Below are positions 48,104 to 53,952 of a stretch of DNA of 64,000 bases, one piece after another (position 1 is the stretch's first letter; every line of letters starts with the position of its first letter). Source of the stretch: an uncultured Victivallales bacterium (GTDB lineage Bacteria > Verrucomicrobiota > Lentisphaeria > Victivallales > UBA1829); contig CALXSJ010000007.1 of assembly GCA_944391115.1 (NCBI GenBank), positions 62,001-126,000 on the forward strand, in the 5' to 3' direction. The notes below the pieces were generated by a model. That model did not search any database, was not told the DNA's origin, and saw only the letters and a list, made by a program, of their open reading frames with translations. A program made the position numbers and the translations under genes.

Positions 48104-50686
48104 ATGAAACGCAGAGTCTTTTTCACAACACTGCTGTCGGCGGGGATCACTGCAGTTGCATCCCTGTTGTTTGTTCCAGGATTGAATGCCGCCGACGCAA
48201 AGAAAACCGCGTCGGATTCCGGAAAAGCCGCAGCGGGCAGTCAGGTTTTGAAGGTTCCGCTGAGGGTCATGTCCCTTCCCGATCCGAAATCGACGGATCC
48301 CAATACCAAGGTCCAGCTGGAAATCCTTCGGGAATTCCGCAGACTGCATCCGAACATCGAGCTTTCTCCGTTCAGCGGAATTGAGATTCAGAACATCGGC
48401 ATGGAATCCCGGCTGATGCTTGCGATTGCCGGCGGTGCGGCGCCGGACGTGATCAATGTTAATTTCCGTATGTCCGATACCTATATTCAGCAGAACTTCC
48501 TCTGGCCGCTCGACAAATATATTGAAAACGATCCCGAGCTGAAAAGCATTAATAATTTTCTCAAAAGTCTTCCCGCTGCGATTCGTCCGATCGTTTATCG
48601 CGAAGGTCCGGCTGTTGGCGGTTTCCCGGCCGGAAGGCATGTCTGGGCGGTGGGAAGCAAAATTCTGGTCCGCGCCCTTTTCTGGCGGAAAGACATTTTC
48701 CAGGATGCGGGACTCGATCCGGAAAAACCGCCGAAGAACTGGGACGAGCTTCTGGAATGCGCACGGCGGATCTCCGACCCCGCGCGCAATAAATATGGAA
48801 TCAGCATGGCGAGCGGCGCTTCGTCATCATGGGATTTCATGTCTTACCTCTGGAGCGCCGGCGGGGATGCTGTGGTGCAGGACCCGAAAACCGGACAGTG
48901 GAAGGCCGCATTCGGTTCGCGGGAAGCAGCGATGGCGCTGGATTTCTACATGCGCCTCGCAACGGAACGCTGGCAGGATTCCGACGGCACGATTCAGCAC
49001 GGTTATTCCACTTTGAATTCGGATGAGCGTTCGGTGAAACTTGCCCAGCAGGCCGGAAAGCTCGGCATGTATTCCCAGTATCTGGGCGATGAACGGATGG
49101 GCGGGGATATTGATCCGGCGCTTGTCGGCATTGCTCCGTTCCCGGCCGGTCCCTCCGGAAAGGGAGCTTCGGAAATCAACGCGACGCTCAGCGGAATCTT
49201 TGCAGGCATTGCGGGCAGAACGAATTCGGAAGGGAAGTATGTTTCCGCGGATAAGATCCGCGATGCCGCCTGGGAATACATCAGCTTCATGAATTCCAAG
49301 GCCGCGCGCAAAATTTATGCGGAAACAATGGTCAGCCTTGGACAGGGCCGCTCCCTGACACCGGTTTATCTCCGGGAGTTCGGCTATACGGAATACCTGA
49401 AATACTTTCCGCCGTCCTGGGAACAGGCTTTCAATCAGGCCTTGCGGGATGGCAAGCCCGAGCCTTACGGGCGGAACTGCCAGATGGTGTATATCTATCT
49501 GACCCAGCCGCTGGACGAGGCCATGCAGCTGTTCCGGGACGGCAAGCTTCCGGAAGGCGATTCTCCCGAGATCAAGGAACAGCGCATTCAGATCCTTCAG
49601 GATATTCTGAAGAAGGCGGAAAACCGCACCAATGAACGGATGATCGGTTATATCTCTCCGCAGGAGCGGCAGAAACGCACCACGGTTGCCATCATTGTCG
49701 CCATTCTGATCGCCTGTCTCTTCTGTTTTGTGATTTACAATATCTGGAAGGTCTTTTCGCCGAAAGATTCGTATTCGGGCAAAAAGCGCGGCTGGGATTT
49801 CAAACGGAACTGGCTTGGTTATCTGATTATGATTCCCGCGCTGGTCAGCATCCTGATCTGGACGTATTATCCCATGATAACGGGTTCGCAGCTGTTCTTC
49901 CAGGAGTACCGTGTGGTGGGCGACAGCCGCTGGGTCGGATTTGACAATCTGGCCGGAGTGCTGTTCAGTGATGAATGGTGGTCTGCAATCTGGAACACTT
50001 TCCGCTACATGATGTTTATTCTGACCATCGGTTTTCTCGCCCCGATTATCCTGGCGATTCTGCTTCAGGAGGTTTCCCACGGGAAAATCGTTTACCGGAC
50101 GCTTTACTACCTGCCGGCGGTCATGAGCGGTCTGGTCGTAATCTTCATGTGGAAACTGTTTTATCAGGCGGGGTCTTCGGGAATTCTCAACCAGACTCTA
50201 AACAGTCTTGCGGGACTGATCGGTCTGGAATTTACGCCGCAGGACTGGCTGAATGATGCGAAATGGGCCATGATGGCATGCGTGCTGCCTACAATCTGGG
50301 CGGGCGCGGGCCCCGGATGCCTGATTTATCTTGCCGCTCTGAAAGGCGTTCCGGATGAAACCTATGAGGCGGCGGAGATCGACGGAGCGAACTTCTTCCA
50401 GAAAATCTGGCATGTGACGCTTCCGACCCTGAAAGCGCTGATTATCATCAACTTTGTCGGAGCCTTTATTGCATCGGCGCAGTCCGGAGGCATGATCCTC
50501 ATCATGACATTCGGACGTGCGAACACCGAGGTGGCTGAGCTGCATATCTTCAAGGAAGCTTATACGAACCTGCAGTTCGGAAGCGCCATTTCCATGGCGT
50601 GGGTGCTTGGAATGATGACACTGCTGTTCACCATTTACAATCTCAAGAGACTTTCCAAGATGGAATTCAAGACTACGGGGAAATAA
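48104..50686 (+). CDS. Extracellular solute-binding protein fused to MalF-type ABC permease
   Basis: The protein has 860 residues from ATG 48104, which starts a Sec signal (MKRRVFFTTLLSAGITAVAS); TTG 48044 and ATG 48086 are alternatives. Residues about 45-520 are a family 1 sugar-binding protein (LEILREFRRLHPNIELSPFSG, MLAIAGGAAPDVINV, RKDIFQDAGLDPEKPPKNWDELLECARRI). A membrane helix lies near 545-570. The permease domain (about 590-860) has typical helices and the EAA loop EAAEIDGANFFQKIWHVTLPTLKAL near 755. SBP and permease are normally separate proteins. The second permease starts two bases later. No ATPase gene is nearby, so a shared ATPase is likely. Substrate unknown. Confidence 0.9.
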   Translation: MKRRVFFTTLLSAGITAVASLLFVPGLNAADAKKTASDSGKAAAGSQVLKVPLRVMSLPDPKSTDPNTKVQLEILREFRRLHPNIELSPFSGIEIQNIGMESRLMLAIAGGAAPDVINVNFRMSDTYIQQNFLWPLDKYIENDPELKSINNFLKSLPAAIRPIVYREGPAVGGFPAGRHVWAVGSKILVRALFWRKDIFQDAGLDPEKPPKNWDELLECARRISDPARNKYGISMASGASSSWDFMSYLWSAGGDAVVQDPKTGQWKAAFGSREAAMALDFYMRLATERWQDSDGTIQHGYSTLNSDERSVKLAQQAGKLGMYSQYLGDERMGGDIDPALVGIAPFPAGPSGKGASEINATLSGIFAGIAGRTNSEGKYVSADKIRDAAWEYISFMNSKAARKIYAETMVSLGQGRSLTPVYLREFGYTEYLKYFPPSWEQAFNQALRDGKPEPYGRNCQMVYIYLTQPLDEAMQLFRDGKLPEGDSPEIKEQRIQILQDILKKAENRTNERMIGYISPQERQKRTTVAIIVAILIACLFCFVIYNIWKVFSPKDSYSGKKRGWDFKRNWLGYLIMIPALVSILIWTYYPMITGSQLFFQEYRVVGDSRWVGFDNLAGVLFSDEWWSAIWNTFRYMMFILTIGFLAPIILAILLQEVSHGKIVYRTLYYLPAVMSGLVVIFMWKLFYQAGSSGILNQTLNSLAGLIGLEFTPQDWLNDAKWAMMACVLPTIWAGAGPGCLIYLAALKGVPDETYEAAEIDGANFFQKIWHVTLPTLKALIIINFVGAFIASAQSGGMILIMTFGRANTEVAELHIFKEAYTNLQFGSAISMAWVLGMMTLLFTIYNLKRLSKMEFKTTGK

Positions 50687-50688
50687 TT

Positions 50689-53013
50689 ATGGCTATTATC
50701 GGCAAAGTAGAAAAAAAGAGTCTGAAGGTCAAGATTCTGAATATTTCAATCCACGTGCTGCTCCTTCTGGGCGCGGTCACGATGGTTTATCCGCTTCTCC
50801 TGATGGTTTCCGGATCCTTCAAGAGCGAGGTCGACTTTTCGGAGTTTTCCCTTCTGCCCGAGTTCATTTACAATCATGAACTCCTGTTCCAGAAACATCT
50901 TGCAACGAAATTCAACGGACAGAACAATCTGTTTTTCAATGCGTTCCGGGAACCTGTCGGATCCGTGAACAATGTGCGGAAACCCGAAAACCCGTCCCGG
51001 GTGAGATTTGACGACTACAAGGCGTTTCTTGCGGAAATGAAGGAGCGGAAACCGCATTACTGGCGCGGAATCGGGATGGCGAACGAGACCGGAGTTTATC
51101 CAATGGTGCTTCGCGATTTCCGTATCTGGCTCTCCAAAAAATACGGCAAGGGCGAAGAGGGGATCAAAAAGCTGAATGAGGCGTGCGACACGGATTACAC
51201 TTCCTGGGACGCCGTCGGACTTCCGGTGGAACGCTTCCATACCAGGAAGATTTCAACGGATTACAGCAAGGGAATCCTCAAGGAAATTCTCGAATTCAAA
51301 AATACCCAGATCAGCGGTCTTCACACATACTGGGTGGATCTTGACGGATTTTTCGTAGACAGCCTGCGCAAGAATGTTGCGCGGGAGCTCACCGATCTGA
51401 ACAGGGAGCTCAAGACAAAATACAATTCCTGGCTCGACATTGCCCTGCCGAGAAGCTATCCGAAAGGCAAGGGCGAATTTACCAAGCTGTGGAGCAAGTA
51501 CGTCCGTGAGGATGTGAACTACGCTTTCCTGCGTCTGGATTCTTCCGCCACCCCGCTTTGGATCAAATTCCTCAGAGAGAAATATAAAGACATCAAAGAG
51601 GTCAATGCCCTGCATGGGAGCAATGCAAAAACGTTTGAGGATCTCAAACTGCCGGCAAGGGAGCCGGATGGCGGGCAGCTCAAGACCGACTGGAGTGAAT
51701 TTGTCTCTCTGGCACTTCCGCCGCAGTACATTCATCTGGAAACGCTTGCGGGCGAATACCGCGACTGGTTGAAAAAGAAGTATGGCACGATTGCCCGTTT
51801 GAACGATGTCTATGATATGGGTTACAAGTCCATTGACGCCATTCCGCTTCCCAAGGAGCATCCTGCGGAAAATCTGGCAATGGCGAAGGACTGGACGGAA
51901 TTTGTCAACACGATGGGAGCGGAGGAAATCGCTCTTGTCCGGACCGCCATTTCCGCATACCGCGATTTTGTCGAAAGCAAGTATATGCTGCCGGACAAGA
52001 GTGTGGATTACAAAAAAATGTCCGTGGATTACAAGAGCACGATCAAAAGCAAACTGGAGATTCCGTTCTATTCCAAGTATCCTGCGTCTCCGGACATCAG
52101 CATGAGCGTGAAAGAGCAGTATCAGGAATTTGTGAAGAATCCCGCCAATGCCGATCTCCGTCTCGTTGCGGATGTCGCGAAAATGCAGCCGCTGTGGCAC
52201 AAGTTCCTGCAGAACAAATACAAGGATGTCGCCGCCGTCAACAATGCCTGGGGAGCGGTTTACACAACCTGGGACAGAATTGCTCCTCCGATCCGGGAAT
52301 ATGAGTGGTTCTCCGTTCTGGACCACAAATGGGATCTGGTGAAGGAATATCTGAAACGGAATTACGTCATGGTGATTGATACGATCATCACCAACGGAAA
52401 TGCCGCTAAGAACACCCTGATTTACTGTGCGCTCGCAGTGCTTGCGGCGCTGATCGTGAATCCGCTGTGCGCCTATGCGCTTTCCCGCTACAAAATGGCG
52501 CCCGCATACAAGATTCTGCTGTTTCTGATGCTCCCGATGGCATTTCCCCCGATGGTGCTCGGAATTCCGCAGTTCCTTCTCATCAAGAATCTGAATCTTC
52601 TGAATACATTCGGAGCTCTGATTCTGCCGACGATGGCGAACGGCTACATGATCTTCCTTCTGAAAGGATTCTTTGACAGCCTGCCGAAGGAACTCTTTGA
52701 ATCCGCGGCAATTGACGGGGCGAGTGAATGGACCGTCTTCTGGCAGATTGCCATGGGGCTTTCCACGCCGATCCTTTCCGTGCTGGCGCTGAACACCTTT
52801 ACGCTGGCATACGGCAACTTCATGATGGCATTCCTGCTCTGTCAGGACAAGTCGATGTGGACCATGATGGTGCATCTGTATCAGCTGCAGATCCGGTCGA
52901 GCCAGGCAGTGGGTTTCGCCGCCCTGATCATTGCGGCCATTCCGACTCTGCTGGTGTTCGTCTTCTGTCAGAACATCATCATCAAGGGCATTGTCGTTCC
53001 GACGGAAAAGTGA
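50689..53013 (+). CDS. MalG-type ABC sugar permease with ~480-residue repeat insertion
   Basis: The protein has 774 residues; family members have about 280. Membrane helix 1 covers about 18-42 and the second helix only appears at about 571-592. The EAA loop ESAAIDGASEWTVFWQIAMG (671-690) and four further helices follow. The inserted region (about 65-545) should face outwards. It holds degenerate repeats of about 65-75 residues, for example LWIKFLREKYKDIKEVN (290-306), YRDWLKKKYGTIARLND (357-373) and LWHKFLQNKYKDVAAVNNAWG (502-522), each followed by Y/T-x-S/T-W/F-D-x-I/L and proline. Similar YG-x-I-x-x-LN-x-AWG motifs occur in GH42-like glycosidases. The insert may bind glycans for the fused SBP. 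Function is inference. Confidence 0.92.
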   Translation: MAIIGKVEKKSLKVKILNISIHVLLLLGAVTMVYPLLLMVSGSFKSEVDFSEFSLLPEFIYNHELLFQKHLATKFNGQNNLFFNAFREPVGSVNNVRKPENPSRVRFDDYKAFLAEMKERKPHYWRGIGMANETGVYPMVLRDFRIWLSKKYGKGEEGIKKLNEACDTDYTSWDAVGLPVERFHTRKISTDYSKGILKEILEFKNTQISGLHTYWVDLDGFFVDSLRKNVARELTDLNRELKTKYNSWLDIALPRSYPKGKGEFTKLWSKYVREDVNYAFLRLDSSATPLWIKFLREKYKDIKEVNALHGSNAKTFEDLKLPAREPDGGQLKTDWSEFVSLALPPQYIHLETLAGEYRDWLKKKYGTIARLNDVYDMGYKSIDAIPLPKEHPAENLAMAKDWTEFVNTMGAEEIALVRTAISAYRDFVESKYMLPDKSVDYKKMSVDYKSTIKSKLEIPFYSKYPASPDISMSVKEQYQEFVKNPANADLRLVADVAKMQPLWHKFLQNKYKDVAAVNNAWGAVYTTWDRIAPPIREYEWFSVLDHKWDLVKEYLKRNYVMVIDTIITNGNAAKNTLIYCALAVLAALIVNPLCAYALSRYKMAPAYKILLFLMLPMAFPPMVLGIPQFLLIKNLNLLNTFGALILPTMANGYMIFLLKGFFDSLPKELFESAAIDGASEWTVFWQIAMGLSTPILSVLALNTFTLAYGNFMMAFLLCQDKSMWTMMVHLYQLQIRSSQAVGFAALIIAAIPTLLVFVFCQNIIIKGIVVPTEK

Positions 53014-53169: not shown

Positions 53170-53952
53170 ATGAAAAGAATTTGTCGCTATACTCTGGTGG
53201 AGCTCCTGGTCGTTGTGGCGATTGCCGCCGTCATTCTGGGGGTTGCGACTCCCGCGTTCTCCGTCATGATGAAGGGGGGGGCCATGACAAGCTCCACCCG
53301 GGAACTTGCCGCGAAAATCAAGGCCGCCCGCTCCTATGCTGTGACAAACAATTCTTACGTCGCGGTGGTGTTTCCGACGGAAAAGGACTGGAGCGGCATC
53401 CGCCTTTCCATGAATTCGTGCGTCTACCGCCCGTGTCTTGTTTACAGGGATGCGAACGGAGACTGGTTTTTCGACACCTGGATTGACGGGGAGCAATGGA
53501 GTGTTCTGAACAAGGGAATTGCCATGATACCCCATGCCGGCGGTACAACGGATCCGGAATTCGCCCGGGAGGAAAATCTCTGGAACGGCGGGACAACACA
53601 GGCTGTGAAAAGTATCCGGAATGTTCCTCTCGGTCCTCTCAAGGATATTTCAAAGACGGATGATGAGGAGCCGCAGGAGGTCTGCCGGGCCATCATTTTC
53701 AAACCGAACGGCCAGCTGGCGGATGTGGATGTCGGCGAGCAGCTGCGGTTCCGGCTGATTGAAGGAACGGTCATCAGAAGCGGTGCGGATGTCAAAGCCA
53801 TGCCGACCAGTGTTTTCACGGAAGGATCGAAAACTTATCTGATAGCAAAGACATTCGCCATTCATCCTCTGACCTGCAGAATGAAAATCGAGGATTTCAA
53901 ATTCGAATGGGATCCGAGCGGTTCGTCTCTCGGAAAAAAGGCGGTGGATTGA
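53170..53952 (+). CDS. FimT/GspH-like pseudopilin
   Basis: The protein has 260 residues with GAGGAG upstream. The N-terminus is MKRICRYTLVELLVVVAIAAVILGV: class III prepilin helix with Glu11 at +5 after cleavage at Arg6-Tyr7. The -1 residue is again Arg rather than Gly. TSSTRELAAKIKAARSYAVTNNSYVAVVF is the GspH/FimT-like start of the globular part. It is probably a minor pseudopilin of a type II secretion or pilus-like system. It is a lone gene with its own promoter. Confidence 0.85.
   Translation: MKRICRYTLVELLVVVAIAAVILGVATPAFSVMMKGGAMTSSTRELAAKIKAARSYAVTNNSYVAVVFPTEKDWSGIRLSMNSCVYRPCLVYRDANGDWFFDTWIDGEQWSVLNKGIAMIPHAGGTTDPEFAREENLWNGGTTQAVKSIRNVPLGPLKDISKTDDEEPQEVCRAIIFKPNGQLADVDVGEQLRFRLIEGTVIRSGADVKAMPTSVFTEGSKTYLIAKTFAIHPLTCRMKIEDFKFEWDPSGSSLGKKAVD

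Follow-up and report, generated by a model that had tools for sequence, protein, structure and literature searches.

What can be the use of some 480 extra residues between the first and second transmembrane helices (TM1 and TM2) of a sugar-importer permease? The question is raised by a gene in a 64,000-nucleotide stretch of DNA (the window) from an uncultured Victivallales bacterium, a member of the Verrucomicrobiota, which are known for polysaccharide breakdown. An earlier note on this DNA had described the product as a MalG-type permease with an enlarged TM1-TM2 loop, and alignment to E. coli MalG confirms this; residues 4-54 and 92-290 of the latter align pairwise to residues 7-60 and 580-769 of the permease. 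Since E. coli MalG is aligned on both sides of the gap, about 480 residues are inserted between TM1 and TM2. The gene starts with an ATG at 50689, directly 3' of the stop of a gene fusing an SBP to a MalF-type permease, and the operon is surrounded in the window by housekeeping genes. Its main features are:

48104..50686, + strand: SBP-MalF fusion gene (signal peptide, SBP_bac_1, one linking TM, MalF-type TMD)
50689..53013, + strand: MalG-type permease gene, 774 codons (open reading frame; BPD_transp_1, E 3.7e-15; model core overlays E. coli MalG)
50755..50811, + strand: TM1 (residues 23-41), N-terminus inside (hydropathy; lysine-rich N-terminus)
50818..52398, + strand: predicted periplasmic loop (residues 44-570; topology; loop model with pLDDT 93.3)
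52399..53010, + strand: MalG transmembrane domain (residues 571-774; Pfam BPD_transp_1; alignment to and model overlay on E. coli MalG)
52699..52770, + strand: cytoplasmic coupling loop, EAA motif ESAAIDGA (residues 671-678; sequence; invariant columns in alignment A1)

The BPD_transp_1 match (PF00528) lies in the C-terminal part of the permease and is over the cut-off. The NCBIfam MalG family is also matched (E 1.2e-21), and because its 77.6 bits fall short of the equivalog cut-off of 261, the protein is classed from its sequence as MalG-type and not as an orthologue of MalG proper. In the fusion partner, Pfam finds both SBP_bac_1 and BPD_transp_1; the solved SBPs nearest to its SBP domain bind trehalose/maltose and arabino-oligosaccharides. 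A single MalK-type ATPase is found in the genome (one PF17912 match), unlinked to the permease pair, and would presumably power the importer. Its core, motif, partner and ATPase mark the system as a CUT1 importer. It shares with E. coli MalFGK2-MalE (CUT1, type I; PDB 2r6g, 3puv), whose SBP contacts lie on periplasmic loops, the MalG core fold (overlay on 3puv_G with Z 19.4 over 242 residues), the EAA motif, the two-permease design and a MalK-type ATPase. Directly 3' of the permease, at 53170-53952 of the window, lies a GspH-like / Verru_Chthon cassette D-like pseudopilin gene.

The N-terminus of the permease is lysine-rich, and the EAA loop, between TM4 and TM5, is cytoplasmic; therefore, the loop between TM1 and TM2 (residues 577-595) must, on this predicted topology, sit in the periplasm. 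A cytoplasmic loop is thereby ruled out, and the extracytoplasmic placement proposed earlier stands. The loop contains seven tandem units of about 70 residues:

50866..51072, + strand: unit 0 (residues 60-128), divergent (model; detected in relatives; not significant by leave-one-out in the 774-aa permease)
51103..51333, + strand: unit 1 (139-215; leave-one-out E 2e-11; model)
51334..51537, + strand: unit 2 (216-283; leave-one-out E 3.7e-10; model)
51541..51738, + strand: unit 3 (285-350; leave-one-out E 6.1e-17; overlays GH42 enzymes)
51745..51936, + strand: unit 4 (353-416; leave-one-out E 1.1e-18; gapped in five-unit forms in alignment A1)
51940..52167, + strand: unit 5 (418-493; leave-one-out E 4.5e-6; gapped in five-unit forms in alignment A1)
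52174..52323, + strand: unit 6 (496-545; leave-one-out E 1.2e-10; model), continuing into the helix before TM2

In the leave-one-out test, each unit was searched with a profile from all other unit positions, and 200 shuffles per unit served as control. Positions 1-6 were recovered at E 5e-6 to 1e-18 (13-54 bits), whereas shuffled units reached at most 6.5 bits. Position 0 (residues 64-116) was not significant by this test in the 774-aa permease; it is found in several relatives by unit profiles, which were trained on the same family, and is modelled with the same secondary structure as the other units. For these two reasons, seven units are counted and not six. The earlier note had thus recognised a genuine array, six of its units being significant, and only its count of about six has to give way once the divergent unit 0 is included. 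The range 50881-52324 that it gave covers residues 65-545 and stops with the last unit, and W-x-E/K-F/Y-V segments stand near residues 268, 335, 402 and 478 as it had claimed.

For the whole permease, modelled by AlphaFold2 with 36 relatives, the mean pLDDT is 85.6 and most loop blocks are above 88; for the loop alone with 45 relatives, pLDDT is 93.3 and pTM 0.88. The same order appears seven times in both models: a long helix, a second helix, a short turn, a third helix, and a three-residue strand that leads into the next unit. In the last unit, a helix before TM2 replaces the strand. Disorder of the loop is ruled out by the pLDDT of 93, and the insert is predicted to form ordered repeats, not a single known non-repeat domain. 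In a Foldseek search with the model of the whole loop, no row came below E 0.001; the best were GH42-like enzymes, starting at 0.23. Since only single units align to known structures, the array as modelled has as a whole no known fold match, which does not prove the fold new.

The origin of the unit is indicated by both sequence and structure. PF02449 (GH42) matches the loop at E 1.1e-20, above the gathering cut-off, and among 20 loops Pfam finds GH42 in 18 and GH14 in seven. A profile search of the PDB returned, above noise, almost only GH42, GH14 and GH50 enzymes, mostly through one short motif placed after the catalytic acid/base. Unit 3 overlays the GH42 exo-carrageenase 6ptm (Z 8.7, rmsd 1.7 Å, 65 residues), and one unit also overlays, with lower Z, other GH42 enzymes (Z 6-7) as well as GH14, GH50, GH167 and related enzymes. 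While Z values of 6-8 alone could reflect common arrangements, the agreement of sequence and structure makes it likely that the unit is homologous to the helical subdomain after the acid/base strand of GH42/GH14-type glycosidases, so that the GH42 likeness suspected at the outset is borne out. In GH42 beta-galactosidases, GH14 beta-amylases and GH50 agarases, the unit occurs once, inside a TIM barrel, whereas the permease loop has it seven times and no barrel; a glycosidase subdomain has been reused as a structural repeat. The GH42 enzymes and several other large proteins of the same genome have one unit each. The latter (loci L205-L209; 721-1784 aa) are not full GH42 matches, and the GH42-type module therefore appears to be widely reused.

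The earlier note had regarded such an importer as unusual. Among 388 sampled Verrucomicrobiota genomes, a match to the loop with E no higher than 1e-12 occurs in 121 by hand count from the table, that is, in about a third, so the trait is widespread and not a one-off; weaker ones, near 1e-7, probably come from genuine GH42 enzymes. No relative was found in plasmid records, and a scan of genome contigs gave three close relatives only. Within the order, the SBP-MalF fusion lies directly upstream at each of the 37 loci that no contig end truncates. At 20 loci outside the order, the distance is at most 330 bases in 15, 1.1 kb in one and 5 kb in two (18 in all within 5 kb), and the genes are unlinked in two. 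The fusion itself is found in 131 genomes, 115 of which also have a loop match. Of the remaining 16, some of them fragmentary assemblies, eleven encode at another place a long MalG (open frames of 490-664 residues) that has diverged too far for the loop profile. In six genomes, the loop is present but no fusion match was found at the limit applied. Repeat-loop importers are thus widespread in Verrucomicrobiota and nearly always paired with the SBP-MalF fusion, and the linkage that the earlier note had asked about is real. The neighbours of the relatives' loci vary, several being genes for carbohydrate use.

Loop lengths across the family range from 221 to 608 residues and fall into clusters of about 221-290, 314-340, 367-403 (the commonest, with five units), 460-490, 523-541 (seven units, including the 774-aa permease) and 605-608 (eight units). 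Length follows the number of detected units (r 0.83), and the steps from five to seven and from seven to eight units are close to whole-unit lengths. Between species, units that share a position resemble each other more closely than units at different positions do inside one protein, and the array is therefore old. The genome that encodes the 774-aa permease has a second pair (L038, contig C4, 8094-12783), a shorter-loop MalG with an SBP-MalF fusion, beside GH123-type and heparinase II/III-like genes; these neighbours hint at a different substrate. In genome G006, of the same family, the fusion and the long MalG (L049, 6190-11674) are each broken only by three in-frame TAG codons and otherwise open. 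TAG reassignment or readthrough is possible there; PylS was not found in G006, which leaves an explanation through PylS without support.

A functional signal comes from comparing how far the parts of the importer have diverged. In 30 paired systems, some of them related, with Kimura distances and both TMDs controlled for, loop distance follows the distance of the SBP domain (partial r 0.54, 95% 0.45-0.61) and hardly that of the TMD of its own protein (partial r 0.10). With rate-matched columns the values are 0.83 and -0.03. With equal column numbers, loop and SBP reach 0.54 and loop and own TMD 0.13, while the TMDs of MalF and MalG, a pair that must interact, reach 0.55. Plain, uncorrected distances also give a positive partial r between loop and MalF (0.42). 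The loop-SBP signal is common to all units. It supports docking of the SBP, although a common selective pressure from the substrate could produce it as well.

We therefore lean, with modest confidence, towards the view that the enlarged MalG-P1 loop serves in the periplasm as a docking scaffold for the tethered SBP. In this CUT1-type (MalFGK2-like) oligosaccharide importer, the MalF partner carries the SBP fused to its N-terminus, and the P1 loop of MalG has grown into seven units that probably derive from the GH42/GH14-type helical subdomain after the acid/base strand. The array, itself non-enzymatic, would dock and orient the tethered SBP above the translocation pore, and so do what in E. 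coli falls to MalF-P2 and the short MalG-P1 loop. We infer both a physical contact between array and SBP and a role of this contact in transport. Besides the co-divergence and the pairing with the SBP-MalF fusion, docking is suggested by the place of the insertion in P1, the very MalG loop contacted by MalE in E. coli; according to work cited in PMC3150292, MalE contacts MalF-P2 and MalG-P1, its N-lobe facing MalG. The E. coli system differs in having a free SBP, MalF-P2 (residues 91-271) as the large SBP-contacting loop, and a short MalG-P1 without glycosidase-type units. Some points count against docking: a precise docking surface might not tolerate the nearly threefold range of loop lengths, the co-divergence could also have arisen from shared selection by a changing substrate, the 30 systems are few and partly related, and the loop follows MalF too in the uncorrected distances. 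A broader formulation is put forward more tentatively, as somewhat short of probable: that a tandem-amplified glycosidase subdomain is a standard non-catalytic scaffold of Verrucomicrobiota sugar importers that docks a permease-tethered SBP, so that the task of MalF-P2 would have been solved independently a second time.

The array might alternatively act as a rail on which non-catalytic subdomains bind periplasmic oligosaccharides and raise their concentration near the SBP. Descent of the units from subdomains adjoining a glycosidase active site would suit this, and a shared substrate could likewise account for the fast evolution of the loop and its co-divergence with the SBP; however, no conserved sugar-binding residue was identified in the units, their most conserved positions (LN, KY, DW-F) look structural, and the parent subdomain on its own is not known to serve as a carbohydrate-binding module. 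We consider the rail unlikely. Glycan contact by the repeats, as first proposed, is possible but found no direct support, the only functional signal, co-divergence with the SBP, pointing to docking. Slightly less likely still is that the array serves some other periplasmic partner (a hydrolase, peptidoglycan, or an outer-membrane porin or receptor) as a spacer or a docking surface, and so ties the importer to the remainder of an uptake route. Whole-unit length steps would suit a spacer, and large enzymes of the same genome bear the same unit, but no constant third gene was seen beside the permease pair at the relatives' loci compared, and the specific co-divergence of loop and SBP would be left unexplained.

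One residue bears on the last alternative:

51085..51087, + strand: Glu133, where glycosidases have the acid/base (invariant among 15 long forms, missing from the short ones)

That the permease contains an active GH42-like beta-galactosidase domain in its loop is barely conceivable: the Pfam score exceeds the gathering cut-off and Glu133 is retained in long forms, but the best match is confined to profile positions 144-264 of 376, which follow the acid/base, and recurs three times, short forms have lost Glu133, and the models lack the TIM barrel and the nucleophile strand. The complete (beta/alpha)8 barrel that bears the acid/base and the nucleophile Glu in a GH42 glycosidase is thus missing. 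An active glycosidase is thus ruled out as a candidate; with the barrel missing, catalysis by the loop is very unlikely, and the permease should not be taken for a GH42 enzyme. Glu133, just after the strand leading into unit 1, is possibly a vestige of the acid/base. Annotators should not call such permeases beta-galactosidases.

The importer is a real, ordered and recurrent variant of a well-known machine. GlnPQ and OpuA, which import amino acids and betaine, are not known to have a repeat loop on a second membrane subunit. What they share with the SBP-MalF fusion is a binding domain covalently linked to a membrane subunit (PMC8025302, PMC11065425). The nearest precedent, by description only, is the loop of Thermotogales MalG1/MalG2, with about 500 hydrophilic residues between TM1 and TM2 (here residues 44-570), in 2008 without known relatives, fold or function (PMC2246101); it is the main uncertainty about novelty. 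The same source describes malE, malF and malG as separate genes, so the SBP is not fused there. No description of importers combining an SBP-MalF fusion with a repeat-loop MalG was found in the literature searched. An importer architecture is defined for about a third of the sampled Verrucomicrobiota genomes, and its natural series of loop lengths lends itself to tests of binding-protein docking on ABC importers.

Further variants were seen among the relatives. In one family (L053, L061, L063, L068 and L073), MalG has about 57 extra residues and added hydrophobic segments between TM3 and TM4. A 673-aa reading frame with about 13 hydrophobic segments (L074, 7399-9417) looks like a single-polypeptide MalF-MalG fusion, and at L141 (2382-6596) the SBP-MalF fusion is unusually long, with 1405 aa and extra hydrophobic segments.
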